Positions 9,754 to 56,436 of a DNA stretch of 64,000 nt are shown here, piece after piece. Under the pieces are notes generated by a model. That model was not told the origin of the DNA and searched no databases. It worked only from the letters and a program-made list of their open reading frames with translations. The position numbers were made by a program, and so were the translations under genes. The stretch spans positions 14,124-78,123 of the forward strand of contig PBSN01000013.1 in the NCBI GenBank assembly GCA_002726235.1, read 5' to 3'. The stretch's first letter is position 1. Each line of letters begins with the position of its first letter. The DNA is from Nitrospiraceae bacterium (GTDB lineage Bacteria > Nitrospirota > Nitrospiria > Nitrospirales > UBA2166).

Positions 9754-9773
9754 TGCTTCTCTTCCTTAACTTC

Positions 9774-10594: not shown

Positions 10595-12046
10595 TTAGTA
10601 TGCCCTGGCAAAGATGGCCGTTTGATTTGTTCTTTTTCCTGTCAGAACGCATTGCCCTTCTTCCTTAGCGTTCTCCATGGGGAGGCAACGAAGGGTTGCC
10701 TTGGTTTCCTTCTGGATTCGTTCTTCATCTTGAGTTGTGCCTGCCCAATGAACATGGAGAAACCCTCCTTGTTCCCGCAGCACGTCTTGGAATGCAGTGT
10801 ATGAGGTCACGCGATGCGTATTGTCGGTACGTTTCTGTAACGCTTGATGACGTAGATTTTCTTGAATGGAGTGAAGGAGTGTTCGTGTTTCCTGGGCGAC
10901 TCCAGCAAGTGGAACCCCAAAGTTTTTCCCTTCTTTTCCTGGGCGATCGCGGCGCGCGAGGACAGCACTTTGCTGTTGCACGTCTTTCGGTCCAATCTCA
11001 ATGCGAATGGGCACCCCTCGCATCTCCCAATCATTGAACTTGAAGCCAGGGGTCTGGTCGTCCCGACGGTCAACTTTGACTCGCATGCCTTCGTCTCGAA
11101 GGCTCGCGTGGACATGGTCAGCAATCTCCAACACGGGGCCCCGCTCAGCTTCTTTTCGCCAAATGGGTACGATCACAACTTGAATGGGCGCGAGCGCGGG
11201 CGGGAGGCGAAGCCCGCGGTCATCGCCGTGTGCCATGATCACGGCTCCAACCATCCGTGTGCTTATGCCCCAGCTTGTGGTATGGCACAATTGAGTAACA
11301 TTGTTTTGGTCGAGGAAGCTGACATTAAAGGCTTGAGCAAATTTTGTTCCCAAATAGTGACTCGTTCCCATTTGCAATGCCCAGCCGTTTCCCATCATTC
11401 CCTCGATCGTGTAGCTATCAACCGCACCGGCAAACTTTTCTCGGTCACTTTTGACACCTTTGATTACGGGGATGGCCGCATCGTTTTCTGCAAAGTCGAC
11501 GTAGACGTCCAACATGCGCAATGTTTCTTCTCTCGCTTCTTTCTCCGTCGCATGGGCGGTATGACCTTCCTGCCAGAGAAACTCCATCGTCCGTAAAAAA
11601 GGGCGGGTTCGCATTTCCCAGCGCACCACGTTGGCCCATTGATTAATCAATAGTGGCAAATCACGATAGGATTGAATCCATTTTGCGTAGTGGTGACCGA
11701 TGATGGTTTCCGAAGTTGGGCGAACGACCAGTGGTTCTTCTAAGGTGTTTCCCCCGCCTATCGTCACGACTGCAAGTTCGGGGGAAAAGCCTTCAATGTG
11801 CTCCGTTTCTTTTTGTAGAAAACTCTTCGGGATGAAGAGCGGAAAATACGCGTTCACATGGCCGGTCGCTTTGAAACGGCGATCGAGTCCTGATTGAATG
11901 GCTTCCCACAGTGCGTACCCGTAGGGTCGAATCACCATTGACCCGCGCACAGGTGAGTCTTCGGCTAGTTCAGCCTCGCGAATGACGTCGAGGTACCACC
12001 GCGAGTAATCTTCGTTCTGTGGTGTAATTTTATTGTTATCGGCCAT
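10595..12046 (-). CDS. proS: Prolyl-tRNA synthetase, short archaeal/eukaryote-like type
   Basis: 483 aa; YSRWYLDVIREAELAEDSPVRGSMVIRPYGYALWE; VRPTSETII; TTSWGISTRMVGAVIMAHGDDRGL. Confidence 0.93.
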   Translation of the reverse strand: MADNNKITPQNEDYSRWYLDVIREAELAEDSPVRGSMVIRPYGYALWEAIQSGLDRRFKATGHVNAYFPLFIPKSFLQKETEHIEGFSPELAVVTIGGGNTLEEPLVVRPTSETIIGHHYAKWIQSYRDLPLLINQWANVVRWEMRTRPFLRTMEFLWQEGHTAHATEKEAREETLRMLDVYVDFAENDAAIPVIKGVKSDREKFAGAVDSYTIEGMMGNGWALQMGTSHYLGTKFAQAFNVSFLDQNNVTQLCHTTSWGISTRMVGAVIMAHGDDRGLRLPPALAPIQVVIVPIWRKEAERGPVLEIADHVHASLRDEGMRVKVDRRDDQTPGFKFNDWEMRGVPIRIEIGPKDVQQQSAVLARRDRPGKEGKNFGVPLAGVAQETRTLLHSIQENLRHQALQKRTDNTHRVTSYTAFQDVLREQGGFLHVHWAGTTQDEERIQKETKATLRCLPMENAKEEGQCVLTGKRTNQTAIFARAY

Positions 12047-12064
12047 GGGGCGATCTTTTTCTCA

Positions 12065-12616
12065 TCATGTCATGCTCTTCCTCTGGTACGCTACGACACG
12101 CTCAATGAATTTGGTCCGTACGACGCGGTGCTGTAGACGGGTCTCATCCTCGACGGGAAGCGAGGGACAATGGGTGGTGACCACTGAAGCGAATAGTCCT
12201 CGCCCATGTGCAACAAGGGAATGGGCTTGGTACACGGGGACGTCGTCCAACCCGCAGGATGGTGAGCGCGCTTTCAGAATAAATCCGTGGATGCCTGTTG
12301 TCAGCAGATCACGCATCCGGAAGTCCGAAAATTTCAAAAGCATCTCTGTCATATCTTGATTGGAGCCGGACGTCATTAATCTTGGAGTGTCCGGTGTTCC
12401 TATCATCTGGAGGGTTTCGCGTGGGATGCCGAGGCCGCATTCAACTTCAGGACATACGGGAACCCATTGGAAGTGGGTTCCTAACTCTTCCGCAATAACT
12501 TGGGTGTTCTTATGCCCTCCGTCGTACCGGACACGCTCGCCAAGCAAACAGCGGCTAATGCCAACACGAGGACGCAATGGGATGTCGCAGAGTTCTTTGA
12601 AAACAGGGGGTTTCAT
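12065..12616 (-). CDS. DUF523 (YbbK-like) family protein
   Basis: RVGISRCLLGERVRYDGGHK...PVCPEVECGLGIPRE...GFILKARSPSCGL; start taken as MKPPVFKELCD rather than the TTG at 12841. Confidence 0.75.
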   Translation of the reverse strand: MKPPVFKELCDIPLRPRVGISRCLLGERVRYDGGHKNTQVIAEELGTHFQWVPVCPEVECGLGIPRETLQMIGTPDTPRLMTSGSNQDMTEMLLKFSDFRMRDLLTTGIHGFILKARSPSCGLDDVPVYQAHSLVAHGRGLFASVVTTHCPSLPVEDETRLQHRVVRTKFIERVVAYQRKSMT

Positions 12617-12636
12617 GAATTCATGCGGCAGACCAG

Positions 12637-12771
12637 TTACAGATTGTTTTTGAAATTTCTTTTCACTCGTTTCGTGTTGAAATAGCGATAGATGCGAACG
12701 ACAAGCGGAATAGCGATGATGAGTACAATGGTTGCACCCATGAAGAATTCTTCTTCGGAAATGGCGAACAT
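12637..12771 (-). CDS. Small single-TM protein (44 aa)
   Basis: MFAISEEEFFMGATIVLIIAIPLVVRIYRYFNTKRVKRNFKNNL* between queC and the DUF523 gene; below the ORF-track length cutoff. Confidence 0.55.
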   Translation of the reverse strand: MFAISEEEFFMGATIVLIIAIPLVVRIYRYFNTKRVKRNFKNNL

Positions 12772-12774
12772 GAG

Positions 12775-13473
12775 CTAACGAGCCTCCAATGCCGGATCCG
12801 GTATGCCTGCTTCGTGAAACCCCTTTTGTCTGAGGAGGCAACTATCGCATTCGCCGCACGGCTTGCCCTGAGGTGATGGATCATAACAGCTGTGGGTAAG
12901 GCTGAACGGCACTCCGAGTTCGATGCCTTTCAAAATAATCTCTGCTTTGGTGAGCTGAAGCAGTGGTGCGTACACCGTGATTGGTGACCCCTCTATCCCT
13001 TGTTGTGTGCCGAGCCGAGCTAATGCATTGAATGCCATCACGAACTCCGGGCGGCAGTCTGGGTATCCCGCGTAGTCGAGCATATTGGCGCCAAAAAAGA
13101 TAGCCGATGCGCCAAGTGACTCGGCCCATGCGAGAGCAAGGGAAAGAAAGATAGTGTTTCGTCCTGGCACGTAGGTGGAGGGGATGCCCTGCCCAATGCG
13201 CTCGACCGTTCTGCCCTTTGGCACGGGGATGGAGGTGGTGAGCGCGGAGCGACTGATGGTGCGGAGATCAACATCAAGAACTAGTGAAGAGGCAGTTTTA
13301 AGGCTCGTCGCGACCTGTTGCGCATGGGCAATTTCAATCTCATGCCGTTGACCATAATTCAGAATAAGGCAGTGGCACTCATACCCATCGGCCATTGCGA
13401 TTGCGGTGGTAACGGTTGAATCCAGGCCTCCGCTGGTAAGGACCACGGCTTGGGTGGCATCCGCTGTACTCAT
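12775..13473 (-). CDS. queC: 7-cyano-7-deazaguanine synthase
   Basis: VVLTSGGLDSTVTTAIA PP-loop; YVPGRNTIFLSLALAWAESLGA; CGECDSCLLRQKGF Zn site. Confidence 0.93.
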   Translation of the reverse strand: MSTADATQAVVLTSGGLDSTVTTAIAMADGYECHCLILNYGQRHEIEIAHAQQVATSLKTASSLVLDVDLRTISRSALTTSIPVPKGRTVERIGQGIPSTYVPGRNTIFLSLALAWAESLGASAIFFGANMLDYAGYPDCRPEFVMAFNALARLGTQQGIEGSPITVYAPLLQLTKAEIILKGIELGVPFSLTHSCYDPSPQGKPCGECDSCLLRQKGFHEAGIPDPALEAR

Positions 13474-14549
13474 GAAAGGGGGCGCTCTCCGAGTGTAATA
13501 TCCACAGTGCGTTGTGTCTTGCCGCGGATAAAAGTGACGCGTACTGTTGCTCCAGGTGTATGGCGACGCATCTCTCGGCCAAGGTCTTCGACCGATGTGA
13601 CGGGTTTCCCGGCGAGGGAGGTAATCACATCGCCTCCAATGATCACGATGGAGTTCCCGATCAGTACTTGTCGGGTTCCGCCACGAAGTCCTGCCTTGGC
13701 GGCGGGACCGTTCTTGAAGACACGAACGAGGAGAACTGCTTGCTTGACAGGGAGCTCAAGCGCCTGCGCAACTCTTGGAAGAAGGGTCTGCATATCAGCA
13801 CCCATCCACGGGTAGGATACATATCCCTTGCTGATGAGTTCGTCGATGATGCGTTTTGCCGTATGGATGGGGATGGCAAAGCCAATACCGACACTTCCGC
13901 CTGAAGGCGTGAAAATTGCGGTATTGATTCCAATCATTTTTCCGGAGGAATCCAGCAGTGGGCCACCGGAATTCCCCGAATTAATCGCGGCATCGGTCTG
14001 TATCACGTTTTCAAGTTCAACTCCACCAACCTGCAGCGTTTTCCGAATTGAACTAATCACTCCTGTTGTGAGTGTTTGATTTAGTGCGAATGGGTTGCCG
14101 ATGGCAAGAACTTTTTGTCCAGTTCTGAGATTACGCGAGTTGCCTATGGAAATAACCGAGAGTCGTTCAGGGGGGGCATCAATGCGCAGTGTTGCTAGGT
14201 CGCTCAGCGGATCAGCTCCGACGAGTTGGGCTTCCCATTGACTCCCATCCGACAGGGTGACTTCAAGTCGCTGGGCTCCTCGTACTACATGATAATTCGT
14301 CACGATATGTCCGCTCAGATCGATGATCGCGCCAGACCCAGACCCTTCTTGCGGAATCGGTGTCATAAAAAAGTCATATGACACGGATCGAGTCGTGATA
14401 TTCACAACAGCTGCCTTGGTATTGTTGTAGACCTGAATGGTATTTTCTTCATCCTGTGTGTGTGCCGGTGAATAGGATGGATGCACGAACAACACGAACA
14501 TGAAGAATATGCTTACGACCGCCCAAAGTGTCTTGTTGCTAGATGACAT
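13470..14549 (-). CDS. S1C serine protease with PDZ domain (DegP/HtrA family)
   Basis: VTNYHVV, SDLATLRID, INSGNSGGPLLD catalytic motifs and a C-terminal PDZ; signal peptide. Confidence 0.9.
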   Translation of the reverse strand: MSSSNKTLWAVVSIFFMFVLFVHPSYSPAHTQDEENTIQVYNNTKAAVVNITTRSVSYDFFMTPIPQEGSGSGAIIDLSGHIVTNYHVVRGAQRLEVTLSDGSQWEAQLVGADPLSDLATLRIDAPPERLSVISIGNSRNLRTGQKVLAIGNPFALNQTLTTGVISSIRKTLQVGGVELENVIQTDAAINSGNSGGPLLDSSGKMIGINTAIFTPSGGSVGIGFAIPIHTAKRIIDELISKGYVSYPWMGADMQTLLPRVAQALELPVKQAVLLVRVFKNGPAAKAGLRGGTRQVLIGNSIVIIGGDVITSLAGKPVTSVEDLGREMRRHTPGATVRVTFIRGKTQRTVDITLGERPLS

Positions 14550-14599
14550 GATCTACAAGGTTCCTGTTTAAATACACGGTGAAACTCATAACATGGCAT

Positions 14600-16333
14600 T
14601 TATGGTTTTACAAGATGGAATTGCGTTTCGTACAGGGTGCGGTACGTTGCACTGCGAGTTATCAGTGCATTATGTGGTCCCTGGTCGATAATGCGGCCAC
14701 CCATAAGCACTAGGATACGATCGGCATGTTGTAGCGTTGCCAAACGATGCGCGATGATAAAGGTGGTTCGATTGCGTGTCAGTTCGTTCAGTGCCGCACG
14801 TATTTTCACTTCAGTTTCTGTATCGATGCTTGAAGTGGCCTCGTCGAAGACGATGATTGGAGGATCTTTGAGAAGGACGCGGGCGATGGCGAGTCGCTGC
14901 TTCTGACCAACCGATAATTTTACGCCACGTTCTCCCACTAATGTCTCGTATTGCTCGGGGAGGGAGGCAATGAACTCGTGGGCTCTGGCTGCTCTGGCAA
15001 CCGCTTCGATGTGGCTGAAATTGGCTGCTAGATCGCCGTACGCAATGTTTTCCCGAACGGTGCCATTGAAGAGGAACGGTTCTTGTTGTACCATCCCTAT
15101 GTGATCGCGCACGTAGGCGAGTGGGAGCGCGCGAAGATCATGGTCATCGAGAAAAATACTTCCTTGTTTTACGTCATAGAAGCGCATGAGTAGCTTAAGG
15201 AATGTACTCTTTCCGGCTCCGGAATGTCCGACAAGAGCAATGCGCTCCCCTGCCTGAACTGCAAAACTCATGTTCGTGAGGACCGGTGTAGCAGGTCGGT
15301 AGCTGAACGTCACATTCTTGGCTGTCACATTTCCACGTAGACGATGTGATGGCGTTGTTACGCCCGGTTGGTCCCGGACTTCTGGCGTGGCATCTAGGAT
15401 TTCGACAACACGATCGCCTGCAGCAAGCGCGCTCTGAAGCATGTTGTTGACCGAATGGATTTGGTTGATCGGGATATAGAACAATGCAACGTAGGCAAGA
15501 AACGCGACGAGTTCGCCGACCGTAAGCTGACCTGCCTGAACCTGCGTCGTTCCGTACCAGAGAATAAGGACACTTCCAAGGCTTCCCATAAAAATCATGC
15601 TGGGCGAATATGTTGCCCATAGCCGCATCACTTGAAGGGTGCTTTCGCAATAGGCGGCGCTTCGCTGTCTGAATCGTTCTCGTTCGTAGGAATGGCGATT
15701 AAACGACATGGTTTCTCTGATGCCTGAGAGCGCGTCCTGAAGATAGGCGTTGAGTTCAGCTACGGCTCGTCGGATCGTGTGATAGAAGCGATGGATGGTT
15801 CTGGTATACAGCACCGCAACGAGAACAAGTACTGGAATGGGAAGCAATGACAGGATGGCAAGTTTCCAGTTGAGAGAAAATAAGATGATTGATATTCCAA
15901 TCAGGGTTAACGATGCCATCAAGAGCGTCTCGAGTCCATCGATAAAGATACGTTCGATGTTTTCCACGTCATTGCTGACTCGGCTCATGATTTCTCCAGT
16001 TTGCCTGTGTTCGTAATAGGCAATTGAGAGGCGCTGGAGAGACTCGAACACTTTTTCACGAAGGTCGTAGATCACTTTTTGTTCGAGGGTGTTGTTGAAA
16101 CGGATTCGTAGACTGGCGGCGATATTACGTCCAGTGTGTGCGGCGATGAGCGCACCGATAAGCCATGGGAGGAACGTGTCGTGCCCTCCAACAATAACAT
16201 CGTCGATGATGAGTTTGATGATCCATGGCGGAACAAGATCAAGCGCGGTCACTCCCGCTGCTGTGATCAAGGTAAGCGAGGATAGAACCCAGTATGGTTG
16301 GATAAAAGCAAGGACGCGGAGCAGCGATTTCAG
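14600..16333 (-). CDS. ABC transporter, fused permease/ATPase (MsbA-like exporter)
   Basis: Walker A GHSGAGKST, LSVGQKQRLAIARVLLKDP signature, VFDEATSSID Walker B. Reading frame extends upstream of the listed TTG (LKSLLRVLAFIQPYWVLSSLT) to a CTG overlapping the lipA stop. Confidence 0.88.
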   Translation of the reverse strand: MKSLLRVLAFIQPYWVLSSLTLITAAGVTALDLVPPWIIKLIIDDVIVGGHDTFLPWLIGALIAAHTGRNIAASLRIRFNNTLEQKVIYDLREKVFESLQRLSIAYYEHRQTGEIMSRVSNDVENIERIFIDGLETLLMASLTLIGISIILFSLNWKLAILSLLPIPVLVLVAVLYTRTIHRFYHTIRRAVAELNAYLQDALSGIRETMSFNRHSYERERFRQRSAAYCESTLQVMRLWATYSPSMIFMGSLGSVLILWYGTTQVQAGQLTVGELVAFLAYVALFYIPINQIHSVNNMLQSALAAGDRVVEILDATPEVRDQPGVTTPSHRLRGNVTAKNVTFSYRPATPVLTNMSFAVQAGERIALVGHSGAGKSTFLKLLMRFYDVKQGSIFLDDHDLRALPLAYVRDHIGMVQQEPFLFNGTVRENIAYGDLAANFSHIEAVARAARAHEFIASLPEQYETLVGERGVKLSVGQKQRLAIARVLLKDPPIIVFDEATSSIDTETEVKIRAALNELTRNRTTFIIAHRLATLQHADRILVLMGGRIIDQGPHNALITRSATYRTLYETQFHLVKP

Positions 16334-17232
16334 TGACGGACCTCCCGCCCCTGTTGTTCGGCATGGTACGAGCTGCGTACAAGCGGTCCGGATTCCACGT
16401 GAGTGAACCCCTTGTTGATGCCGGTGGTACGTAGCGCTTCAAATTCTAGTGGTTCGTAAAATCGTGAAACTTGGCGATGGGCATTGGTTGGCTGGAGGTA
16501 CTGACCGATGGTGAGTATTTCGCACCCGACGGAGCGAAGATCGTCCATGACGGTCTCTACTTCCGCTATCGACTCGCCCATGCCGACGATCATGCCGGAT
16601 TTTGTCATGATTCCAGATTGCATGGCATGCGCGAGTACATTAAGTGATCGACAGTAGTTGCCTTGTGGTCGAACAGAATGAAACAGGCGTGGCACGGTTT
16701 CGATATTATGGTTTACGATGTCCGGATGAGCACCAAGGGTGACGTCAAGGGCACTGGTTTCTCCCTTGAAGTCGGGAATTAAAACTTCAATGCGACAATT
16801 GGGTGTTTGTGTTCGAATGTGGCGGATCGTTGCCGCAAATTCCGCACTTCCACCATCTGAGAGATCGTCACGATTTGGGGAGGTGATGACTACGTGTCGA
16901 AGCCCTAAGCGTTCCACCACCTGCGCGATTCTCAGGGGTTCCCCTGGGTCTATTGCAAGGGGCTTGCCTGTTGTAACGGAACAGTATTCGCACCGTCTGG
17001 TGCAAATCTCTCCGAGGATCATCAGGGTCGCGGTCTGATTATTCCAGCATTCCCAGATGTTGGGGCACCGAGCTTCCTCACAGATGGTGTGAAGTGAGAA
17101 TTTCTCGGTGAGGTGTTTTATCTGGGCATAACGAGGTCCAGATTTGAGGTGTATGCGAAACCATGGAGGGAGGGATTTTCGCTCACCTCCTGCATTTGAA
17201 CGGGCTCGTGAGACTGGTGCGCCTCGATGCAA
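16330..17232 (-). CDS. lipA: Lipoyl synthase
   Basis: Radical SAM CTRRCEYCSV, CEEARCPNIWECW N-terminal cluster, GLRHVVITSPNRDDL. Start placed at TTG 17232 after AAGGAG. Confidence 0.92.
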   Translation of the reverse strand: MHRGAPVSRARSNAGGERKSLPPWFRIHLKSGPRYAQIKHLTEKFSLHTICEEARCPNIWECWNNQTATLMILGEICTRRCEYCSVTTGKPLAIDPGEPLRIAQVVERLGLRHVVITSPNRDDLSDGGSAEFAATIRHIRTQTPNCRIEVLIPDFKGETSALDVTLGAHPDIVNHNIETVPRLFHSVRPQGNYCRSLNVLAHAMQSGIMTKSGMIVGMGESIAEVETVMDDLRSVGCEILTIGQYLQPTNAHRQVSRFYEPLEFEALRTTGINKGFTHVESGPLVRSSYHAEQQGREVRH

Positions 17233-44354: not shown

Positions 44355-45890
44355 ATGAGCATACATAACTGGAAAGTAGTGAGTAGCTTGGTGTTGGCCA
44401 TGCTTCTGGCTTTCGGCGTCGGGACGGCTTTCGGCGCAGCCAAGATGGAGCTGGGCGACGATGGTTACACCGTTCCGGTGACCGACAATACGTTTGGGTT
44501 CTGGGACGAGGGATACGCGAGCTATACGGGCACTGACAATCCGAACATTGTCGCGATTCCGTTGGCGCAGGTTTTGACGCCATTGCCGCAGGGTGCAGCT
44601 AGTGCCACACGGAACAAAGATGGTAGCGGTGAAGGCTACACCATTGGCAAATGGACGTATTGGGCGGGTGAATATAGCGATCTCCATCCCATTGAAGAAG
44701 CGGGAACTCCGTTGCCGCCAAATGAAATGGGTGTGCCGACCATGTTGAAGGCCGTTCTGGGTGAGAAAGCCTTCTTTGATGGGCGGTATTCCGGGGACAC
44801 CAGCACGCCGTGTTCCAAGTGTCATGATCCGGCCCAGGGCTTCGGAACCTTCGACGACGTGTCGACGGGGTATCCGAGCATCATTCACTGGCGGAACAGC
44901 CATACGACCATGAACAACGCATGGCACGACAAGTTTTTCTGGGATGGACGGGCCTTGGCCTTGGACAGTCAGGCAGAGGGCGCCAACACGGGCTCAGGCT
45001 TAGCCGGCAATGCGACGTCCGAGCACATGCTCCCGCGGCATTTCCAATCTGATGAGTACACCATTGGTTTTTTCCAGGAGTGGAATGCTCCTCCATCCAT
45101 TGCAAAGATTGACTGGGCCATCGACATCTACGAGCGGATCACACGGTCGGATCCCAACGTCGTCCCGTTTGATATGTGGATGAACGGCGATGAAGATGCC
45201 ATTTCCGATGAAGCCAAGCGGGGCGCTGAGCTCTTCAACGGCGAATGGGATTGTGTGCGTTGCCACTTTGGCCCGCATGGCGTGGGGACCCAGGATTTCT
45301 ATAGCTTAGGGTTGCCGCGTATTGCTTCTTTTGACGATGATCCGTTACGCCAAGAAACAGTCCGCTACATCGACTATGGAGCCGGTATGCATGGCATCAT
45401 GGATTGGGACTTGGACTATTTCGATGACCTCGGCATCGGTATGCGGACACACTTGAAACAAGATTTGATGCATCTCAAAACCCAGCAGTTGCGTGAACTC
45501 TGCGTAACCATGCCGTACTTCCATCAGGGTACCCACAATGACCTGGATGAAGTGGTGCGGTTCCACCTGCATGGTGGCGGCAATCCGTACCTTAAGGATG
45601 CGGACGGTCGTGGGGCTGACTTTGCTGGTTGGCGCCATGAGGGTCGCGAGGGTGAAGATCCTGGACCTGGTACCGGCGGTTTCCCTGGTACGGTGAACTA
45701 CGACCGCCCTGGGAAGAAAGGTGCCAACATGAAAGTGATCAATGACCCCGCTGATGAGGATGTCGACGCCATGGTGGCGTTCTTGGAGTCCATGTGCACG
45801 CCGGAAGAAGAGGGCAGTGCTCCGTGGACGGAGCGGAAGGTGTCAGTTCCGAGATATTCACCACCGCTCTATACGGGACCTCAACCGTAA
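44355..45890 (+). CDS. Di-haem cytochrome c peroxidase / MauG-like protein (IdrP-like)
   Basis: Signal peptide; two CXXCH sites CSKCHDPAQGFG and CVRCHFGPHGVG. Confidence 0.85.
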   Translation: MSIHNWKVVSSLVLAMLLAFGVGTAFGAAKMELGDDGYTVPVTDNTFGFWDEGYASYTGTDNPNIVAIPLAQVLTPLPQGAASATRNKDGSGEGYTIGKWTYWAGEYSDLHPIEEAGTPLPPNEMGVPTMLKAVLGEKAFFDGRYSGDTSTPCSKCHDPAQGFGTFDDVSTGYPSIIHWRNSHTTMNNAWHDKFFWDGRALALDSQAEGANTGSGLAGNATSEHMLPRHFQSDEYTIGFFQEWNAPPSIAKIDWAIDIYERITRSDPNVVPFDMWMNGDEDAISDEAKRGAELFNGEWDCVRCHFGPHGVGTQDFYSLGLPRIASFDDDPLRQETVRYIDYGAGMHGIMDWDLDYFDDLGIGMRTHLKQDLMHLKTQQLRELCVTMPYFHQGTHNDLDEVVRFHLHGGGNPYLKDADGRGADFAGWRHEGREGEDPGPGTGGFPGTVNYDRPGKKGANMKVINDPADEDVDAMVAFLESMCTPEEEGSAPWTERKVSVPRYSPPLYTGPQP

Positions 45891-45955
45891 CAACGCTTGA
45901 GCGAATTGGAAATCAAGAAGACACTTATTAACCTCGTTAGTGAGGAGGGCATCGG

Positions 45956-46537
45956 ATGGAAGTTAAGAAGAAAGAAATAGCCGAAGAGCCCGAAGATTGT
46001 GGCTGTGGCGTGACGCGACGCCAGGTCATGGTTGGGGCAGCAGTCGGTACGGCAGCCCTTGCGGCGTCGGGTCTTGTGACCGGCAAGCCGGCGATTGCAG
46101 GAAGTATGGACGGATACCCAAGGAAGTTGATTGGTACGGTGAGCGGTCTTTCGACTGACCAGCCGCAGGTGTTCACGTATCCTCAGGATGCTCCATCGAT
46201 TTTCCGGTCTGCGCTCGTAAAGCTCGGCGTTCCGGCGGTTGATGGTGTTGGCCCTGAAGGTGATATCGTGGCCTTTAACGGGCGATGCCCTCATCAGGGT
46301 GGCGAGCTCGTTCCTGAAGACGACACTCTTCGGTACGATGGGGCGTCGAAAACCATGGGTCCGTGCCCGTGGCACCTTTCAACATTTGACGTGAGCAATG
46401 AAGGTATGATCACCAGTGCTCATTCCACCCAAAACCTGCCACAGATCGTGTTGGAGGTTGAGGGGGACAACATTTACGCAGTTGGTGTAAAGGGGCTCAT
46501 TTACGGGATGCCCTCCAACTTGATGCAAGTGAGCTAA
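45956..46537 (+). CDS. TAT-exported Rieske protein, small subunit of an Aio/Idr-like oxidoreductase
   Basis: TAT motif TRRQVMVGAAVG; CPHQGGEL...CPWHLSTFD cluster motifs. Confidence 0.85.
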   Translation: MEVKKKEIAEEPEDCGCGVTRRQVMVGAAVGTAALAASGLVTGKPAIAGSMDGYPRKLIGTVSGLSTDQPQVFTYPQDAPSIFRSALVKLGVPAVDGVGPEGDIVAFNGRCPHQGGELVPEDDTLRYDGASKTMGPCPWHLSTFDVSNEGMITSAHSTQNLPQIVLEVEGDNIYAVGVKGLIYGMPSNLMQVS

Positions 46538-46549
46538 GGAGGGGAACTC

Positions 46550-49243
46550 ATGGCAGGAACAAGCTTCAGTAATGTAGGGTTCGCGAAAGACGAACCTACT
46601 GATAAGGTACCCCTTCCTCCGAAAGATGCGAAGGTGTATCCGACGGCCTGCGATTACTGCATCGTTGGCTGTGCCTATAAAGCGTTTGTATGGCCTAAGG
46701 GAACCGAAGGCGGCCCGGCGGCTGGCGACAATGCCTACGGCGTTGATTTTCCGCGGGTGGATGCACTGGCGGGTTGGTGGCCAACCCCCAACCAGTACAA
46801 TGAAGCCTACATTGACGGCAAGCTCCACAGTATTGTCGTAATTCCTGATGGCAATGCCACGGTAGTGAACCGTGCTGGAAACCACAGTATTCGTGGTGGA
46901 GCAATTGCGCAGAAAATTTACAATCCCAACAAGGGCACTCGGGATCGGCTTCAGACCCCGATGATGCGGGTTGGGAATTATCACCTTCCGGTGTCTTGGG
47001 ACACCGCGACGCGTGTGGCCGGTGAATTGATGCGCTACACCGTCAATGAGTTTGGGGAGCTGGCGTTGACCGGAAAGGTCGGCAGCTATATTTTCTGGGA
47101 AAATACCTATGCCTGGACCAAGCTCATGATGCAGCAGTTCGAGACCATGATGGTTGCGCACCATGATAAGCCGTCATGGAGTTTCGGGGCGGATAGTTCC
47201 GCCATGTCGGCGCTCGGTATCAATGCGTTTGCGCCGGCCTATGATGATTACTCCACGGCAGAGGTGATCTTCTCGTCCGGTACGGATTCTTACGAGGATC
47301 ATACCGTGCTCTGGACGGAGTGGATTCAGCAGGCGGAGCCGACCATGATTTATGTGCTTCCGCGTCAATCGAAGGGTGTGCCGTGGGCACTTTCCCGTGG
47401 TGGTGTGTACCTTGAAGTTTATCCTGGTACCGACGTTCCGGTTATGAACGCGATCTCTCGCGTGATTATTGAGAATGGCTGGTATGACAAGAGCTGGCTC
47501 AATTATCACGGTGTGACCCGTCATGACATTAATGCGGGCATGGGACGTGGAAAGCGGAATAGCCACAAGCAGTGGCGTACTACCAAATGGGGACTGACGC
47601 TGTCTGAGTTCAAGCAGTTCATCCTCAATGACGAATTTTCAACGTTAGAGGCTGCAGAGAAGATTGCCGGCGTTAAACGTGCCGATATCGTTCGAGCGGC
47701 TGAAATTATGGCGAAGCCGAAGCCAGATGGTTCGCGGACCAAGACCTCGTTCTTGAATGAGAAGGGGAACTATTGGTCGAACAATTGGCTGAACAACGCG
47801 GGCTTTGTGAACTTGGCGTTCTTGTGCGGCGCTGGGACTCGTCTCGGTCAGGTCATCGGCCGTGGTGGTGGACACCAACGTGGCATGATTCAGGGAAGCA
47901 AGTTCCTTTCGCATAAATCGCCTAACCGTTATGGGCAGAATACTCGAGTTGCTGGCGATGTCGACCAGTGGGTGCAGGCCGGCCATGCCCGTTTCTTCTA
48001 CCTGACGGCTTGTCAGTGGACCAACTGTAGCTGCGCTGCAAGCGACCTGTCGGAAACCATTGCGGATCAGACAGTCAGAATGCCGCAGCAGCTCCAAAGT
48101 ACCGATGCCGATCATGCGATTCAGGTCTTAAAAGAAAGAATGCAGAATCGTGGGTTGGTGCTGGTGCATCAAGACGTGTATGCCCGTGATGTCACTGAGA
48201 TGGCGGATATCGTTTTGCCTGCCGCACAGTGGGGCGAGGCTGACTTGACGCGTGCTCAGGGTGAGCGGCGTATGCGTGCGTACAGTAAGTTCACCGATCC
48301 TCCCGGAGATGCCAAGCCGGACTGGTGGATTACACAAAAGATTGGGCAGTATGCAGGGTTTGGGGCAAACGGCTTTAACTGGAAGACCAACCGCGACGTG
48401 TTGAAAGAAGCCGCGCGTTATTCCAGAAAGGGCGTGTTGGAGTATGCCCCGCTGATTCGGTACACCACCCGCTTGAAAGCGGATCCGTTCAAGTTCATCC
48501 AGTCCTTGGGGTCGACAGGTTTGCAGACGCCCATTCGGTTGGACTTGGGCAAGTTGGTTGGAACCAAAAAGCTCCACTATGAATCTGCGCCGCAGATGCG
48601 TCACGAAGAGAACACCACGCACCACAAAAAGCTGTTCAACTGGTTCACCTTCTCCACAGGGAAGGCGATGTTCTTCAAGACCGATTGGCGGCTGTTCTCT
48701 GATTACTTTGAGCGGATTAAACCACGCGGTGATGAACTGTGGGTGACCAACGGCCGCGTGAATGAAATCTGGCAGTCCTTGTATGACGATCTTCGTCGTC
48801 CATATATCATGCAGCGGTATCCGATGAACTTCATCGAGATGCATAAAGACGATGCTGCCGCGCGTGGTATTGAGACGGGCGATCTCGTCGCGGTCGAAAA
48901 CGATGACCTGCTGATTCAAACCGGTGGTCAGTTCGGTGTCCGCGATGAAGACTCGCTCTTTACGGGGCTGATGAAGAATGGGCACATCAAACGGTCTCGT
49001 GCCGCTCTGACCGCTATGGCTGTTGTGAATACCGACGTCAAGAAGGGCGTCACCTTCATGTACTTCCTGTGGCCAGGGTCTTCGTTTAACAGCTTGATGC
49101 ATGCTGTTCCGGATCCGATTACTGCTGCTCCGCGGTATAAGACTGCGAAGGGCCGGATTCGTAAGATCGGTGAGACGGCTGCGAAGCGGAGCGGGATCCT
49201 CAGGGGTCTTGAGCACAAAAACACCATGCCGGAATGGGCCTAA
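46550..49243 (+). CDS. Molybdopterin oxidoreductase catalytic subunit, AioA/IdrA-type
   Basis: 897 aa; CDYCIVGCAY [3Fe-4S] motif with Ser of NHSIRGG near the fourth-ligand position; DMSO-reductase-family Mo-bisPGD folds. Confidence 0.85.
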   Translation: MAGTSFSNVGFAKDEPTDKVPLPPKDAKVYPTACDYCIVGCAYKAFVWPKGTEGGPAAGDNAYGVDFPRVDALAGWWPTPNQYNEAYIDGKLHSIVVIPDGNATVVNRAGNHSIRGGAIAQKIYNPNKGTRDRLQTPMMRVGNYHLPVSWDTATRVAGELMRYTVNEFGELALTGKVGSYIFWENTYAWTKLMMQQFETMMVAHHDKPSWSFGADSSAMSALGINAFAPAYDDYSTAEVIFSSGTDSYEDHTVLWTEWIQQAEPTMIYVLPRQSKGVPWALSRGGVYLEVYPGTDVPVMNAISRVIIENGWYDKSWLNYHGVTRHDINAGMGRGKRNSHKQWRTTKWGLTLSEFKQFILNDEFSTLEAAEKIAGVKRADIVRAAEIMAKPKPDGSRTKTSFLNEKGNYWSNNWLNNAGFVNLAFLCGAGTRLGQVIGRGGGHQRGMIQGSKFLSHKSPNRYGQNTRVAGDVDQWVQAGHARFFYLTACQWTNCSCAASDLSETIADQTVRMPQQLQSTDADHAIQVLKERMQNRGLVLVHQDVYARDVTEMADIVLPAAQWGEADLTRAQGERRMRAYSKFTDPPGDAKPDWWITQKIGQYAGFGANGFNWKTNRDVLKEAARYSRKGVLEYAPLIRYTTRLKADPFKFIQSLGSTGLQTPIRLDLGKLVGTKKLHYESAPQMRHEENTTHHKKLFNWFTFSTGKAMFFKTDWRLFSDYFERIKPRGDELWVTNGRVNEIWQSLYDDLRRPYIMQRYPMNFIEMHKDDAAARGIETGDLVAVENDDLLIQTGGQFGVRDEDSLFTGLMKNGHIKRSRAALTAMAVVNTDVKKGVTFMYFLWPGSSFNSLMHAVPDPITAAPRYKTAKGRIRKIGETAAKRSGILRGLEHKNTMPEWA

Positions 49244-49404
49244 CATCACCCTATTGAGGTATGTGATTAACACGCAACGTGACATATGGACTGGTGCCTT
49301 GCGAGGAGGCAGTATTCTCCTCGCAAGGGCCTGGTTCGTGCATGAAATTAACTTTCGCAACTACAGTGTTTCGAGTTAGAGAAAGAGGGGAGGATCTAAG
49401 TCAC

Positions 49405-50286
49405 ATGAAAAAGCTACTTACACTTGCGGTGGCCGGCGTCTTTTTAGCCTTTGGCTTTGCCGCGACTGCGGATGCGCAGATTAAAAAACCAGGTTTCCAG
49501 AAAAAAGCTCCAAAAATGCCGAAGACGGCTTATGCTGAAGGTTCCGCTGGCGGCGGATCTGTGGCCGGGAAAGTGTCCTACTCTGGCAAGGTGCCGGATC
49601 CAAAGCCGTTTACCATCAGCAAAAATCCTGAAGTTTGTGGAATTGAAGGCAGTGGAAAAGCAACGAGTGGCGGCCAGCAGTACTCTACAGAGGGCCAGCG
49701 AGTCTTCCACTTCACCTATGCGCCGGGCGGTGTCGCACAGCATGCTGTTGTCTTCATCGAGGGCATTGAAACCGGCAAGCCGTGGGGCGATTTTGGCGCA
49801 AAGATGGACATTCGTGCCGAGGATTGCGCATTTCTTGAGTACCAGAACCTCGTCCGTGACGGAACCACCGTGTTTGAGACGGTCAACCTTGACTCCGTAC
49901 TCCACAACCCGCATACGTTCTATTTTGCGGGCAAAGCGCGGAAGACCTTCTTTAACGTAGCCGTCAACCCCAAAGGCGAAAAAGGCGATAAGACCGGATT
50001 CACCTTCGCAGGCAAGATGGCGATGAAAAAGGGCAAGGCTCGCGTTTTCAAGTTAGAGTGCGACCAGCATGATTTCATGCATTCATGGGGTTGGAATGCG
50101 TCAAACCCTTACGCGCAAATCGTCGCGGCTGATGGAACCTACACTTTGGATGGCGTTCCGGATGGAACCTACAATGTGTGTGTCTGGCATCCAGAGACCG
50201 GGATTTGGTGTGATGAAGTGGCTGTTGCTGGGGCAACGACTCACGACTTCACCATTTGCAACAAAATGAAAAAAGGCTGCTCGTAA
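49405..50286 (+). CDS. Secreted cupredoxin-like / methylamine-utilisation-type protein
   Basis: Signal peptide MKKLLTLAVAGVFLAFGFAATADA; LECDQHDFMHSWGW...DGVPDGTYNVCVWHPE. Confidence 0.7.
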   Translation: MKKLLTLAVAGVFLAFGFAATADAQIKKPGFQKKAPKMPKTAYAEGSAGGGSVAGKVSYSGKVPDPKPFTISKNPEVCGIEGSGKATSGGQQYSTEGQRVFHFTYAPGGVAQHAVVFIEGIETGKPWGDFGAKMDIRAEDCAFLEYQNLVRDGTTVFETVNLDSVLHNPHTFYFAGKARKTFFNVAVNPKGEKGDKTGFTFAGKMAMKKGKARVFKLECDQHDFMHSWGWNASNPYAQIVAADGTYTLDGVPDGTYNVCVWHPETGIWCDEVAVAGATTHDFTICNKMKKGCS

Positions 50287-50320
50287 ACCTTTAAAGGCCG
50301 ATTAAACTGGAGGTAATGCA

Positions 50321-51652
50321 ATGAAAACTCCGTTAGGGAAATACGCTATTGCGGTAGCGGGGATTGCCGTGGCCTTTGGGTTCTTCGTGGCAATATCCGT
50401 TACTCCGAGTGCGGTTCAGGCCGGGACGACCATCATCACGGTACCTGACGTTGCGCCGCTGCCGCCGGCGCCATTTACCGACGCCCGAATCGTCAATATC
50501 GGGCGCCAGATGTTTTTTGACAAGATGCTGGCTGCTGATGGACAGCAGGGTTGCAAATTGTGTCATGATCCGAAGTTTGGATGGGCGCATGATAAGCAAA
50601 TTTCACCGGGCTATCCTTCGACCATGCATTGGCGGAATTCGCAATCTGTCATGAACACAGCCCATCGCGATGGAGGTGAGTTGGGGCAGACCGGTAACTG
50701 GGGCGGGCTCAGTGCCGCCATACAGTACAAGTGGTCATCGCCGTATTTCCTCGCCCGTGACGGCCGTTTGGTCGTTCAGGTGTGGCGGCAGTTCCCTGGG
50801 TACATGAAGATGTGGAAGGAAGTGTATGGGCATATGCCGTCCTACCCAACCATGCGGGATAGCCTTGTTGAATTTACCAAGACCATTAATTCACAAAATG
50901 TGCCGCTGGATTCGTATCTCCAAGGCAATGACAAAGCACTGTCAGGGATGGCGAAAAACGGATTATCTCTCTTCAAGGGCAAAGCGCGTTGCATTTTGTG
51001 TCACAATGGCGCGTTGCTCTCCGATGAGAAGTACCATAACCTGATGATCCCGAAGAATCCGATTGTTGACATCGATCCGTTGATGCAATTCAACCGTCGG
51101 TTTTCGTTCCGCAACCTTGGGACTCCAGGCAACGATGTCTGGTGCCGTGGTAACGTGCCGGATCTTGTTGATTATCAGCCACAGCCCTGTTCTGAGGGTA
51201 AAGAGCCGATGTTTGATATGGGACGTTTCACTGTCACCAAGGACTGGGGCGATCTCCACAAATTCAAGACAGCCATGTTGCGTGACGTCAGCCGGACATC
51301 GCCCTATGGGCATAACGGCATGATGGGCGCTTCGTTGGACGAAGTGGTGGAGTTCTATAACAAAGGCGGCGGCCCGATGTGGCAGCCGACGCACGTCCAC
51401 TTCGCCGAGATGGTGAAGGCTCCTGCGATCAAGCCATTGGGCTTGACCTCACAGGAACAGGCTGATTTGGTGGCCTTCCTTGACGAAGGGCTTACCGGGT
51501 CGAAAATTATTGTGGAAGAGGTCAATGCATTTCCTCCACCACAAGCTCGTCCGGTGCAAACAATTCGGCTGTTGGAAACAAACTGGACTCACCTGAAGAG
51601 CGACAAGTATGGTAAGGGTGAGGCTATCGATACACTGCACGGCCACAGGTAG
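50321..51652 (+). CDS. Second di-haem cytochrome c peroxidase / MauG-like protein
   Basis: CXXCH sites CKLCHDPKFGWAHD and CILCHNGALL; signal peptide. Confidence 0.85.
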   Translation: MKTPLGKYAIAVAGIAVAFGFFVAISVTPSAVQAGTTIITVPDVAPLPPAPFTDARIVNIGRQMFFDKMLAADGQQGCKLCHDPKFGWAHDKQISPGYPSTMHWRNSQSVMNTAHRDGGELGQTGNWGGLSAAIQYKWSSPYFLARDGRLVVQVWRQFPGYMKMWKEVYGHMPSYPTMRDSLVEFTKTINSQNVPLDSYLQGNDKALSGMAKNGLSLFKGKARCILCHNGALLSDEKYHNLMIPKNPIVDIDPLMQFNRRFSFRNLGTPGNDVWCRGNVPDLVDYQPQPCSEGKEPMFDMGRFTVTKDWGDLHKFKTAMLRDVSRTSPYGHNGMMGASLDEVVEFYNKGGGPMWQPTHVHFAEMVKAPAIKPLGLTSQEQADLVAFLDEGLTGSKIIVEEVNAFPPPQARPVQTIRLLETNWTHLKSDKYGKGEAIDTLHGHR

Positions 51653-51669
51653 GCCAGCAGAAGTGTGAT

Positions 51670-51758
51670 CCCTGGCAGCTTTCTTGTCAAAGCTGTCAGG
51701 GTGGAGTATAAAAAAGGGGTGGGTTGGCGATTTGTTGCGGCCGCTCACCCTTTTTTTT
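51670..51758 (+). terminator. Tandem hairpins; the second is a bidirectional-type terminator
   Basis: ccctggcagcttt-cttgtc-aaagctgtcaggg, then aaaaaaggggtg...cgctcaccctttttttt. Confidence 0.75.
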
Positions 51759-51795
51759 GTGGGTTCAACGAAACGATTTTTAAGGGGGGCGAATA

Positions 51796-52287
51796 GTGAA
51801 GGTAATGAGAGGAGTGCTCGCGCTTGCAATAGCGGTAGCGTTCATGGCAGGAGGCCTCTTTGTGGGGACGCCGGACGTGGGAGCTGCGAAGCTCAAGGCG
51901 CAGGTTGCCATACCAAAGAAGTATGAGGGGAAACATATGCCGGAAGGTGGCTGGACTGATCCCAAGCTGATTGCGCGTGGGAAAGAGGTCTATACCGGCA
52001 AGGTCAACAAAAAAGTGAAATGTTCAAAATGCCATGGCAAAAAAGGAAAACCTAAAGCCAAAGGCGCGCGGGATTTCCGGAAGGCCGCCAACATGGAAAA
52101 GTTTTCTGATACCTATTGGTTTTACCGCATTGCCGATGGGGTTCCGAAAACGCTGATGAAGGGCTGGTTGGGCAAAATCACCGAAGACGATATTTGGGCG
52201 GTGATGGCGTACGAGAACATGTTTTCCCACGGGGGGAAGCCGGCTGTGCCTGATAAGTCAAAGTGGGCAGCCCCTAAATTTAAATAA
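51796..52287 (+). CDS. Mono-haem c-type cytochrome
   Basis: GTG start; signal peptide; single CSKCH; downstream Met candidates. Confidence 0.85.
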   Translation: MKVMRGVLALAIAVAFMAGGLFVGTPDVGAAKLKAQVAIPKKYEGKHMPEGGWTDPKLIARGKEVYTGKVNKKVKCSKCHGKKGKPKAKGARDFRKAANMEKFSDTYWFYRIADGVPKTLMKGWLGKITEDDIWAVMAYENMFSHGGKPAVPDKSKWAAPKFK

Positions 52288-52416: not shown

Positions 52417-52914
52417 ATGGCACGAGACTTATTTGAGATTCGCACTGAAGTGAAACGAATTTCTCGGCACTTGAATATTCTCTCCGACAAAGTTTCGAGT
52501 CGCGCGGAAAAACAGGACTTGGATGCCGAGCAGGTATTCATCGCCATTGACGAGCTTCGGAGCAACTTAACCGAAGTGCAAGCGCTATCGCTGAATTTGG
52601 TCGAAGGGGCAAATCCGGAAGCCGATTCCGATCTCACGCGGAAAAATCTTCGTGCCCAGTTTAAGGAAGTGGGGATGCTTGTTGACGTCGTGCGACGTCG
52701 CGGAGCGTCAACATCTCGGCTGGTCAATGATATCTTGACCGCCGCGTCTGAAATTGCAGATCATTCCGATCATCTTGCGGCTCTCGACATCGACCTCGAC
52801 CAGCTTGGACAGCGCCAACCGGAGTTAGCGGAATATTCAAACGAGCTGACCTCTGCACCAGTTCGGGCTGCTGGAGAGATGACAGACGTTGACGGTGAAG
52901 TCCAGGAACACTAG
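52417..52914 (+). CDS. Hypothetical cytoplasmic helical protein
   Basis: 165 aa, MARDLFEIRTEVKRISRHLNILSDKVSS...; no signal peptide. Confidence 0.65.
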   Translation: MARDLFEIRTEVKRISRHLNILSDKVSSRAEKQDLDAEQVFIAIDELRSNLTEVQALSLNLVEGANPEADSDLTRKNLRAQFKEVGMLVDVVRRRGASTSRLVNDILTAASEIADHSDHLAALDIDLDQLGQRQPELAEYSNELTSAPVRAAGEMTDVDGEVQEH

Positions 52915-52970
52915 GTTATCGCACTGATCAACGCTCGATCGAAAACTCCTTCATCTTTCTTTTTCGGCAA

Positions 52971-53870
52971 ATGAAACTATTGTGGATTGTGGTGATGCCC
53001 CTCGCGGGGCTGTGGATGGTCTTGGCTCATGCTGAATCCCCTCCTTCCACGTGGGTTTTGATTCCTGCCGGTGAGTTCATCATGGGAAGCAGCGCGGAAG
53101 ATATTGAGCATGGGACTGGGTTGTGTGAAACCGACTGCACCACCAAAGTGGGAGACTTGATGGGGGACGTTGAAGCCTTGAGGGTGTGTCGGGGGCAGTG
53201 CAAGCCAGAAATGTTTGGCAACGAAACGCCAGTGCATCGTGTCTATCTTGATGCCTACTTTCTCGATAAATTCCTCGTAACCAACGCTCAGTATCGTGAG
53301 TTCGTTGTCGCCAAGGGTCGTCCTGCGCCACGCAATGAATCCAGGGCAAAGTATACGCTCTGGAAGGGGGATACGGTCCCGCAGGCAATCATGCAACAGC
53401 CGGTGATCAATGTTTCATGGTATGATGCACGAGCCTATTGTCGGTGGGTTGGGGGGAGATTACCGACAGAAGCCGAGTGGGAAAAAGCCGCTCGTGGGCC
53501 GGATGGGCTGAGGTATCCGTGGGGCCATGAGATGCCGACACCGTCTCATGCCAACTATGGCCGACCATGGAGTGGAGACACGACGTTATCGCCGGTTGGG
53601 CAGTTTGAAAAGGGGAAGAGTCCCTACGGCATTTATGACATGGCAGGGAACGTGTGGCAATGGACGAATGATTGGTATGCCGAGCATTACTACGACGTGA
53701 GTCCAAAACAAAATCCCCAGGGCCCCAAACGAGGTCGCAACAAAACTGTTCGTGCGGGGTCGTGGATCAACATCCCTGCAGTCATCCATTCGGCGTCACG
53801 TGTGGGGTATGATCCACTCAACCGAATCTATGATATTGGCATTCGGTGTGCCAAGGGTGTCAAGGGGTGA
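52971..53870 (+). CDS. Secreted SUMF1/formylglycine-generating-enzyme-family protein
   Basis: LIPAGEFIMGSSAED, GGRLPTEAEWEKAARGPDGLRYPWG, MAGNVWQWTNDWY. Confidence 0.88.
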   Translation: MKLLWIVVMPLAGLWMVLAHAESPPSTWVLIPAGEFIMGSSAEDIEHGTGLCETDCTTKVGDLMGDVEALRVCRGQCKPEMFGNETPVHRVYLDAYFLDKFLVTNAQYREFVVAKGRPAPRNESRAKYTLWKGDTVPQAIMQQPVINVSWYDARAYCRWVGGRLPTEAEWEKAARGPDGLRYPWGHEMPTPSHANYGRPWSGDTTLSPVGQFEKGKSPYGIYDMAGNVWQWTNDWYAEHYYDVSPKQNPQGPKRGRNKTVRAGSWINIPAVIHSASRVGYDPLNRIYDIGIRCAKGVKG

Positions 53871-53922
53871 CCACGCGTCACAGGGCAAGATTTCAATGGA
53901 CAACAAATCGGAGGTATCCACT

Positions 53923-54414
53923 ATGACACGACTAGTTCTTATTCTCATGATGATGGGGATTGGTACCAACGCATTGGCTGCGGATGATCCCAGTATTAAA
54001 GGGGAAAAGCGGTCATCTATCCAGGCAGCGATGAGTACGCACATTGCGGAAAACTCTGTGGACGGGCGGTATGTTCTCTATGATCCCATTGACGACAAGG
54101 TTCTCAAGTTGAAACTCGACGACCTTCACGATGGGATTGTCCAAAAGTCAGATTTCTATGTGAGCTGCGCAGATTTTTCTGCCAGCGACGGGACGTATTA
54201 CGATCTCGATTTCATGGTGGTAGAGAACGACGGCGAGTATAAAGCGTTGCAAGGGTTCGTACACAAGGTAGGAGATACCAAGCGGAAGTATCATTTGGAA
54301 AATACGGTGGACACAACAACTGTTGCAAGTGTACAGGAGACTGCGAAAGCAACGGAGACGTCCGACACCTTCACTCTTTTTGGGTTTGATCTGAGTTGGC
54401 TGAAGTTTTGGTGA
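53923..54414 (+). CDS. Small periplasmic hypothetical protein
   Basis: GGAGG RBS before ATG 53923; signal peptide MTRLVLILMMMGIGTNALAA. Confidence 0.65.
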   Translation: MTRLVLILMMMGIGTNALAADDPSIKGEKRSSIQAAMSTHIAENSVDGRYVLYDPIDDKVLKLKLDDLHDGIVQKSDFYVSCADFSASDGTYYDLDFMVVENDGEYKALQGFVHKVGDTKRKYHLENTVDTTTVASVQETAKATETSDTFTLFGFDLSWLKFW

Positions 54415-54732: not shown

Positions 54733-56436
54733 CTAAAGAGATTCAACCCCCTGACACAAGGTGCCAAAGTCAAACTTTGACTCATCGATTTGATAACAGT
54801 CGCAGATCTGAGTCACTTTGGTAATGAGGCGCTCGAAAGAGGCTTCGCTGATGATCCCGGGCTGGATAAAACGCTCGGTGAACCAAGTGCTCTTGAGAAA
54901 CCAGCTCATCGGATCTTCAATACGACTCAGACGCAAGTATTGAAACTCGTACGCTTGACGGCCCAGCTGCACGTAAGCCCCTCCTGAGGTGTCATCCTCC
55001 CAATGGGAGTACACGTTGTTTCGCACATAGGTGTCCATCTCATCGAGGCTCAGGAATCGCTGTGCCAGAAGGTTGCAGAGGAAATCCTCACTACGATGCA
55101 ACATGCGTTTGAGTACGGCCTGACCCAAGCGATCGGATTCTTCCTTCAACCCAGTCAGCTCCCGAGCGGTCTGATTCCGGACGGCTGTGGGTGCGACGGC
55201 ATAAATCTCATCAAAGAGCTCGGCCAGCTCTTCGGTCAACGTCTTCCACTCGCTCCTTGTTGCTGGTGGGATAAGGATCCATCCTGACTCGGCCGCAAGA
55301 TGCGTCCACTCGTGAACGGTGCGGGCAGCCAGCATGAAGCGTTCGTACGGTGGTGACGGCTCCCAGAGGCGATTTTCATACTCTCCTGGCCCGATATTGT
55401 AGGCCACCAGCTTCCGTTGCCCATGTACGTAGCTCAGTCCCACTTCGGAGAGATCGGGTGCTGGATCGGCGAGTTCTTGGGGCAATCGAAGCGATTCCAA
55501 AAATCGTCGGGAGTGAAATGCTACGACGTTCAAGTCCTTCAAAATACGCTCCTCTCCCTGCTCAGTCAGTTCAGCCAAGGATGCGTGAAGCTCTGCCGTC
55601 TTTTCTGGTGCATCAGGAGCCCACAGGATCCGCCCTTTGGCTCCTGTGACCAGCAATGGAGGCTGCATCTCCGATAACCACGTACTAATTTTCGTTTCCC
55701 GGATAGAAACGCACGTGTAGGTTCCACGATGCTGCTGGATCACGTCACTTGCACAATTCAGCCACGACTGCAGAAGGCGATCCAGCTTATTGGAGAGATT
55801 GCCAGGAAGGATCAACCCAGTCTCCCGCATCATACGGGCGCGAGGCAATGCCAGCGTGGGCCTCTTGATCTGCTCATGATAGAGTTTCTGCACCCATGAC
55901 ATGGCCTCTGCCAATGCTCGGAATCCCCGAGCATCAGGCCGAGGGGTCTTCCGACAGCCGGTGACAAAATCACGCAGCTGTGTGGGGCTGCGTGTGAGAA
56001 AGTAGCTGAGGTTGGCCGCTAATGATGCAGGGCCAATTTCCTGTAATAGGGCCATCCGCTCCACATGAAAAAATTGGTAAGTGGCAAACTCCAAGGTAGA
56101 GAAAGCCGGATCAAAGTCGGAAGAATACACGACCCAGGAATTCTTGTTGAAGGGCAAGTAATATGGGCGGATGCGATTGGGCTGCGTCACAATACAGATA
56201 TGTTGTACCCGAGGTGGAAACCAAAAACGAGGAGCTTTGTGATGAAGATCTAACGCCCGTTTCCAGTACGTAGTAAAGGCTTGGTTGAACAGCGCGGCAG
56301 ATGCACGGGTGAAGACATCTCGTTCCAGTACCTTATCCTCGAAGGAACGGCTCAAACCAACCGATGACAAGTGTTCTATCGGAATGACAAATATGCCGTC
56401 ATGCGCGAAGTAGTAGTTGAACAGGTCGGAGTTCAA
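54733..56436 (-). CDS. Uncharacterised 567-aa protein with an HEXXH-type motif
   Basis: Long ORF; RTVHEWTHLAAESGW motif near 55300-55316. Confidence 0.7.
   Translation of the reverse strand: MNSDLFNYYFAHDGIFVIPIEHLSSVGLSRSFEDKVLERDVFTRASAALFNQAFTTYWKRALDLHHKAPRFWFPPRVQHICIVTQPNRIRPYYLPFNKNSWVVYSSDFDPAFSTLEFATYQFFHVERMALLQEIGPASLAANLSYFLTRSPTQLRDFVTGCRKTPRPDARGFRALAEAMSWVQKLYHEQIKRPTLALPRARMMRETGLILPGNLSNKLDRLLQSWLNCASDVIQQHRGTYTCVSIRETKISTWLSEMQPPLLVTGAKGRILWAPDAPEKTAELHASLAELTEQGEERILKDLNVVAFHSRRFLESLRLPQELADPAPDLSEVGLSYVHGQRKLVAYNIGPGEYENRLWEPSPPYERFMLAARTVHEWTHLAAESGWILIPPATRSEWKTLTEELAELFDEIYAVAPTAVRNQTARELTGLKEESDRLGQAVLKRMLHRSEDFLCNLLAQRFLSLDEMDTYVRNNVYSHWEDDTSGGAYVQLGRQAYEFQYLRLSRIEDPMSWFLKSTWFTERFIQPGIISEASFERLITKVTQICDCYQIDESKFDFGTLCQGVESL

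Follow-up and report, generated by a model that had tools for sequence, protein, structure and literature searches.

What kind of redox system is encoded by six consecutive plus-strand genes in a small-genome relative of the nitrite-oxidising bacteria? The window, a 64,000-nucleotide stretch of contig PBSN01000013.1, belongs to a Nitrospirales metagenome-assembled genome (MAG) of 1.87 Mb in 27 contigs, estimated to be 91% complete. Between positions 44355 and 52287 it carries genes for a di-haem peroxidase (P1), a Rieske protein (B), a molybdoenzyme (A), a cupredoxin (CU), a second di-haem peroxidase (P2) and a cytochrome c (CYT). The original prediction had called these six ORFs in this order and had read them as an iodate reductase (Idr)-like or new molybdenum-enzyme system; all six are present at these positions and on this strand, and Pfam and NCBIfam domains bear out the peroxidases, Rieske protein, molybdoenzyme and cytochrome c. 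The successive intergenic gaps measure 65, 12, 161, 34 and 143 bp, and the GC content of the operon (50–56%) resembles that of its flanks, with an ordinary base composition. A recent island of odd composition was considered and rejected, as GC is flat across the operon and the sole tRNA of the window lies 10 kb away. The closest protein to A (91% identity) comes from "Nitrospirales bacterium OFTM238" (G002), of the same genus as the window, and the PF00384 matches in the host genome comprise A, two NuoG-like proteins and one that by eye resembles assimilatory nitrate reductase or formate dehydrogenase.

A (46550–49243) combines Rieske_3, Molybdopterin and Molydop_binding domains, as expected of a catalytic Mo-bisPGD subunit with a [3Fe-4S] cluster, while B (45956–46537) is a Tat-exported Rieske [2Fe-2S] subunit with the Tat motif TRRQV and the ligand motifs CPH...CPWH. 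The N-terminus of A (MAGTSFSNV...) contains no RR, so A has no Tat signal of its own; the signal is on B, as in Idr. In a thorough maximum-likelihood analysis of 27 sequences (support given as bootstrap/SH-aLRT), in which Azonexus and Endozoicomonas OPT23, the latter a predicted iodate reducer (PMC8692401), stood in for the IdrA of the proven iodate reducers Denitromonas and Pseudomonas SCT, A fell within the IdrA-type clade at 100/100, and neither in AioA, which formed the other clade (100/99), nor in an unrelated molybdoenzyme clade. Placement of A with AioA was rejected (p-AU 0.0003), and B likewise grouped with Idr-type B subunits, split from AioB at 99/98. Within the IdrA superclade the A proteins of the window lineage form a deep, long branch that pairs with Nitrospinota sequences (99/97) outside an 11-row clade of canonical gene order (96/99). 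All canonical-order Idr loci sampled in the tree belong to that clade, among them the Planctomycetaceae type, which has been listed as deep-branching (PMC8692401).

The substrate pocket gives the same answer. In the alignment, HN...E and GGHQE occur in 21 of 21 Aio rows, while the Idr rows show HD (62 of 62 readable rows) and GGHQR (63 of 64) and have lost the Glu in all but one. A has HD...D and GGHQR, the HDxP/GGHQR signature. Relative to the arsenite site, which in Alcaligenes faecalis we take to be H195, E203, R419 and H423, the Glu is replaced by Asp beside a two-residue insert, HN has become HD and GGHQE has become GGHQR, with the Arg and His kept.

That A and B might nevertheless be an arsenite oxidase (Aio) with added cytochromes is suggested by NCBIfam, which labels both as arsenite oxidase subunits above cut-off (A, TIGR02693, 428.8 bits against 359; B, TIGR02694, 97.5 bits against 95.65), and by the solved structures closest to A, which are AioA. 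However, the same A model also matches canonical Idr proteins at 389–426 bits, compared with 1499 bits for NT-26 AioA, and the tree, the AU test and the loss of the HNRPAYNSE/GGHQE site all reject this identity. Genes for AioX/S/R, arsC or arsH do not adjoin the operon, unlike in NT-26 or Nitrobacter, and the neighbours scanned within about 10 kb included no aio or ars regulatory or resistance genes. Compared with AioAB of NT-26 and A. faecalis, the window proteins thus share the [3Fe-4S] and Mo-bisPGD large subunit, the Rieske small subunit and the Arg and His of the site, but differ in overall sequence (~27–29% identity), in the lost Glu and motifs and in the presence of peroxidases. We therefore consider an arsenite oxidase very improbable.

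The labels themselves deserve comment. TIGR02693 and TIGR02694 name canonical Idr proteins and those of the window lineage "arsenate reductase (azurin)" just above cut-off (389–467 bits), and Idr loci are mislabelled in databases, where "arsenite oxidase" annotations from these models hide Idr-type enzymes. The "arsenite oxidase" that adjoins nitrite oxidoreductase (NXR) in Ca. Nitrosediminicolota (PMC11009272) may need the same check. Several Nitrospira-type genomes do carry AioA-type genes (L121–L125 and L129–L135, all in Nitrospirales family f3 apart from L125, in f4); HNRP/GGHQE is present in those f3 sequences that were tested, the available flanks show no peroxidases, and these genes probably encode real arsenite oxidases. 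Groundwater Nitrospirae/Thermodesulfovibrionia (L103, L105–L107, L110) hold a very deep AioA/IdrA relative in a clade of its own (support 100), with a Rieske partner, no peroxidases and the pocket N-G...E...R instead of H-N/H-D.

P1 (44355–45890) and P2 (50321–51652) are secreted proteins, each with a CCP_MauG domain (E 1.1e-24 and 1.6e-22, respectively) and two CxxCH motifs, and P1 carries an N-terminal extension of ~130 aa. When 31 di-haem cores are placed in a tree, they divide with 100/98 support into peroxidases encoded next to B (IdrP1) and those encoded further away (IdrP2). P1 lies in the IdrP1 clade, with the upstream peroxidases of Nitrospinota (97/88), and P2 in the IdrP2 clade (100/98), both on long branches. 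These trees identify B, P1 and P2 as the orthologues of IdrB, IdrP1 and IdrP2, and because it is the downstream protein that falls in the IdrP2 clade, P2 sits on the opposite side of A compared with the canonical order. That order is P2-P1-B-A: in 48 Idr-type loci both peroxidases are encoded upstream of B-A, a consistent association. Among 22 AioA-type loci no peroxidase was found; for 14 of these the contig extends 4 kb or more upstream. Thus, the peroxidases do flank the AB core in the window, as had been predicted, but the accompanying statement that canonical Idr peroxidases follow AB was mistaken, as they precede it.

CU (49405–50286) was the least transparent component: sequence searches of Pfam and the PDB gave nothing above threshold, and a fold search alone resolved it. 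With 17 relatives as input, AlphaFold gave a model (mean pLDDT 79) whose PDB matches include amicyanin, plastocyanin and the Nitrosopumilus purple cupredoxin, and H169, C221, H224 and M227 (a His plus C-x2-H-x2-M) are invariant in the family. These features uphold the call of a secreted cupredoxin-like protein, which is probably, on the strength of the model, a type-1 copper electron carrier. Its start is the ATG at 49405 rather than the GTG at 49279, start and signal peptide being conserved in a second locus (L035). CU shares the fold and ligand set of amicyanin and plastocyanin but is longer, at 10–22% identity, with a fn3/carboxypeptidase-regulatory-like domain at its C-terminus and an association with Idr. 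Of the Idr-type loci examined, about one third (21 loci from several phyla, the window included) have a CU relative nearby; none of the AioA-type loci does. The idea of two added electron-transfer or copper components therefore stands in that CU and CYT are both there, but CU is not unique to this lineage. It is a frequent Idr accessory, which in the window lineage and its neighbours lies inside the operon, between A and P2.

The cupredoxin gene directly upstream of P2 also raises the idea that P1 and P2 are modifying enzymes of the MauG/MbnH kind, which would oxidise a residue of CU (or of A) so that the operon matures an unusual copper carrier. MbnH and MauG models match both proteins below cut-off, and in the PDB P2 matches a di-heme enzyme best, with cytochrome c peroxidases ranking lower. 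Yet the NCBIfam equivalog matches do not exceed 135 bits, where the cut-off is 363, P1 is closer to classical cytochrome c peroxidases than to MauG/MbnH, and CU is no obligate partner, as many canonical Idr loci have P1 and P2 and no nearby CU. Like MauG/MbnH and CcpA, P1 and P2 have the CCP_MauG domain and two CxxCH haems, but they score below the family cut-offs and form Idr-specific clades of their own. We regard a maturation role as improbable.

CYT (51796–52287) is a secreted mono-haem cytochrome c with a Cytochrom_C domain, and its affinities link the operon to the host. In the Nitrospinota loci L036 and L180, P2 bears a third, C-terminal haem domain, and CYT is 45% identical to this tail in L036 (E 4e-34). 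That the two are encoded separately in the window genus but fused in Nitrospinota argues for CYT and P2 working together. That CYT is a mere neighbour had been entertained in view of a homologue in the seemingly operon-free genome G001, and was dropped when the G001 contig was seen to show CU-P2-CYT cut at its end. Each of the four window-genus genomes, as well as Nitrospira-type genomes, encodes paralogues of CYT (43–48% identical), which lie just upstream of a bd-like oxidase subunit and a further cytochrome c; in the window's genome this locus also holds Rieske and cytochrome b genes. Haem-copper oxidase gave no matches in the four MAGs of the window genus (G000–G003), in which the bd-like oxidase is present. 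Given the kinship of CYT to the cytochrome of that oxidase locus, the operon seems to connect to a Nitrospira-type respiratory chain. The small cytochromes adjoining canonical Idr loci (Azonexus, Thiothrix) look unlike CYT, and we read these sequence relationships as a probable swap, in the window lineage, of the usual Idr carrier for its own respiratory cytochrome.

The window lineage comprises three genomes of the window genus and three of Nitrospinota, and the order P1-B-A-CU-P2 is kept wherever the contigs show it, namely in the window, L035 and the loci L036 and L180 of marine Nitrospinota. A short contig (L037), from a genome titled Nitrospirota but listed within the phylum of the Nitrospinaceae genome G402, shows B-A-CU. 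In the third window-genus genome the contig starts inside CU and continues with P2, CYT and the counterparts of the genes at 52417, FGE and 53752; the fourth (96% complete) gave no match. Chance does not explain the grouping of these genes, since it recurs in Nitrospinota and in two further members of the genus. Across the 396 genomes of the phylum sample just two more carriers of this type were found, from another family and at about 45%, one of them with canonical order, and 4 of 77 Nitrospinota genomes matched, one (G408) in canonical order. This patchy, cross-phylum distribution suggests horizontal transfer. In a deeper pair of loci (L040, L042) CU follows B-A, and L040 has one peroxidase behind CU, which may mean that the downstream placement is old. 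The L042 locus (9210–17189, Geminicoccaceae), in which Idr-like B-A and CU are followed by CtaG and COX1 genes and no peroxidase was found, may be a peroxidase-free Idr variant.

Taken with the trees of A, B and the peroxidases and with the pocket residues, the gene order in these relatives supports an Idr-like molybdenum-enzyme system, and the operon is a new variant of Idr in a nitrite-oxidiser (NOB) lineage. It resembles IdrABP1P2 of Denitromonas sp. IR-12 and Pseudomonas sp. SCT (PMC8692401) in its four orthologous components, Tat-type B, A devoid of a Tat signal, secreted P1 and P2, and pocket. It differs in that A is ~40–44% identical to canonical members, in the order P1-B-A-CU-P2 in place of P2-P1-B-A, in having CU inside the operon and a NOB-lineage CYT, and in forming a separate sister branch common to Nitrospinota.

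What would such a system do? The data on which an answer rests are the family membership, the orthology of P1 and P2, the two-phylum operon, the Idr-type pocket and the kinship of CYT to a respiratory-chain cytochrome. We favour, at a probability of about 0.6, a rearranged periplasmic Idr-type system that reduces iodate, with P1 and P2 removing peroxide-type by-products, its substrate and direction being predicted from homology. In a scheme modelled on those published for Denitromonas, in which idrA is needed for iodate reduction (PMC8692401), and for Pseudomonas SCT (PMC8692401; PMC10746228), quinol would be oxidised by a host cytochrome bc-type complex and the electrons would pass to CYT and/or CU and onwards through B, with its Rieske centre, and the [3Fe-4S] cluster to the molybdenum of A. 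There iodate would be converted to hypoiodous acid or iodide, while P1 and P2 would take electrons from CYT and may remove H2O2 or similar oxidants formed on the way. Aerobic marine Idr carriers reduce iodate only under limited oxygen (PMC11445184), and by analogy oxygen-limited iodate use may fit an organism with a bd oxidase in water poor in oxygen.

The same complex could instead act on another oxyanion, or oxidise iodide or hypoiodite and feed a bd-like oxidase via CYT. The deep, long branch of A outside the canonical Idr clade and the new gene order and carrier set leave room for this, and the kinship of CYT to the cytochrome beside the bd-like oxidase would fit electrons moving to oxygen no less than electrons coming from quinol. 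By contrast, the pocket is Idr-type throughout and both Idr peroxidases are kept, as expected for the same chemistry, and oxidation of iodide to iodate requires a very high-potential acceptor, which speaks against the iodide-oxidising version. A changed substrate or direction therefore seems possible but clearly less probable than iodate reduction.

In oxygen-deficient sea water, iodate has been put forward as the oxidant of nitrite (SIGNIFICANCE), an idea that has also been disputed (PMC8114937; PMC11373643). NxrA and NxrB, searched with Nitrospirales queries, were not found in the four window-genus genomes, which are 73–96% complete and from which Nxr can drop out in binning, while the same queries found NxrA in G402 and NxrB in the Nitrospira-type genome G023. 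Gene content lends no support to the window organism being a nitrite oxidiser. The window genus (G000–G003) is possibly a non-nitrite-oxidising branch of Nitrospirales. G402, the Nitrospinaceae genome of L036, has the operon together with an NxrA (52% to the Nitrospirales query) on different contigs of a bin that could be mixed, and no Nxr was seen in the other Nitrospinota operon carriers; we treat this apparent co-occurrence as a lead, not a demonstration. It is doubtful, though conceivable, that the operon in NOB lineages forms a lithotrophic iodate-respiring chain in which a NOB-type cytochrome c carries electrons towards iodate, with nitrite as donor in those Nitrospinaceae that have Nxr, or with some other inorganic compound. 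Were it to do so, the proposed oxygen-independent nitrite oxidation by iodate in oxygen-deficient sea water would gain a genetic basis.

In a non-exhaustive literature search we found no visible report of an Idr system in Nitrospina, Nitrospira, Nitrospinota or Nitrospirota, and a comparative study of Nitrospinota makes no mention of iodate. Two phyla, Nitrospirota and Nitrospinota, have in common an Idr-type operon that is tied to a respiratory cytochrome of their own type. This gives the contested connection between iodine and nitrogen cycling named genes that can be tested, and one carrier of them also has NxrA. As the lineage lies near the base of the IdrA clade, its biochemistry bears on the divergence of iodate reduction and arsenite oxidation.

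Behind CYT, on the plus strand (52417–54414), are genes for a 165 aa orphan, an FGE-sulfatase-like protein (52971–53870) and a 220 aa orphan. They hold this place in three genomes of the genus, the window and two others (L198, L199), and in Nitrospinota L180 an FGE homologue follows P2 at a distance of ~4 kb. The genes flanking the operon are split across contigs in G001 and were not found in G003. On the minus strand, a 567 aa orphan (54733–56436) that has no Pfam match is 84% identical to its counterpart in G001, where it lies close to mdh, indicating that the neighbourhood has been rearranged within the genus.
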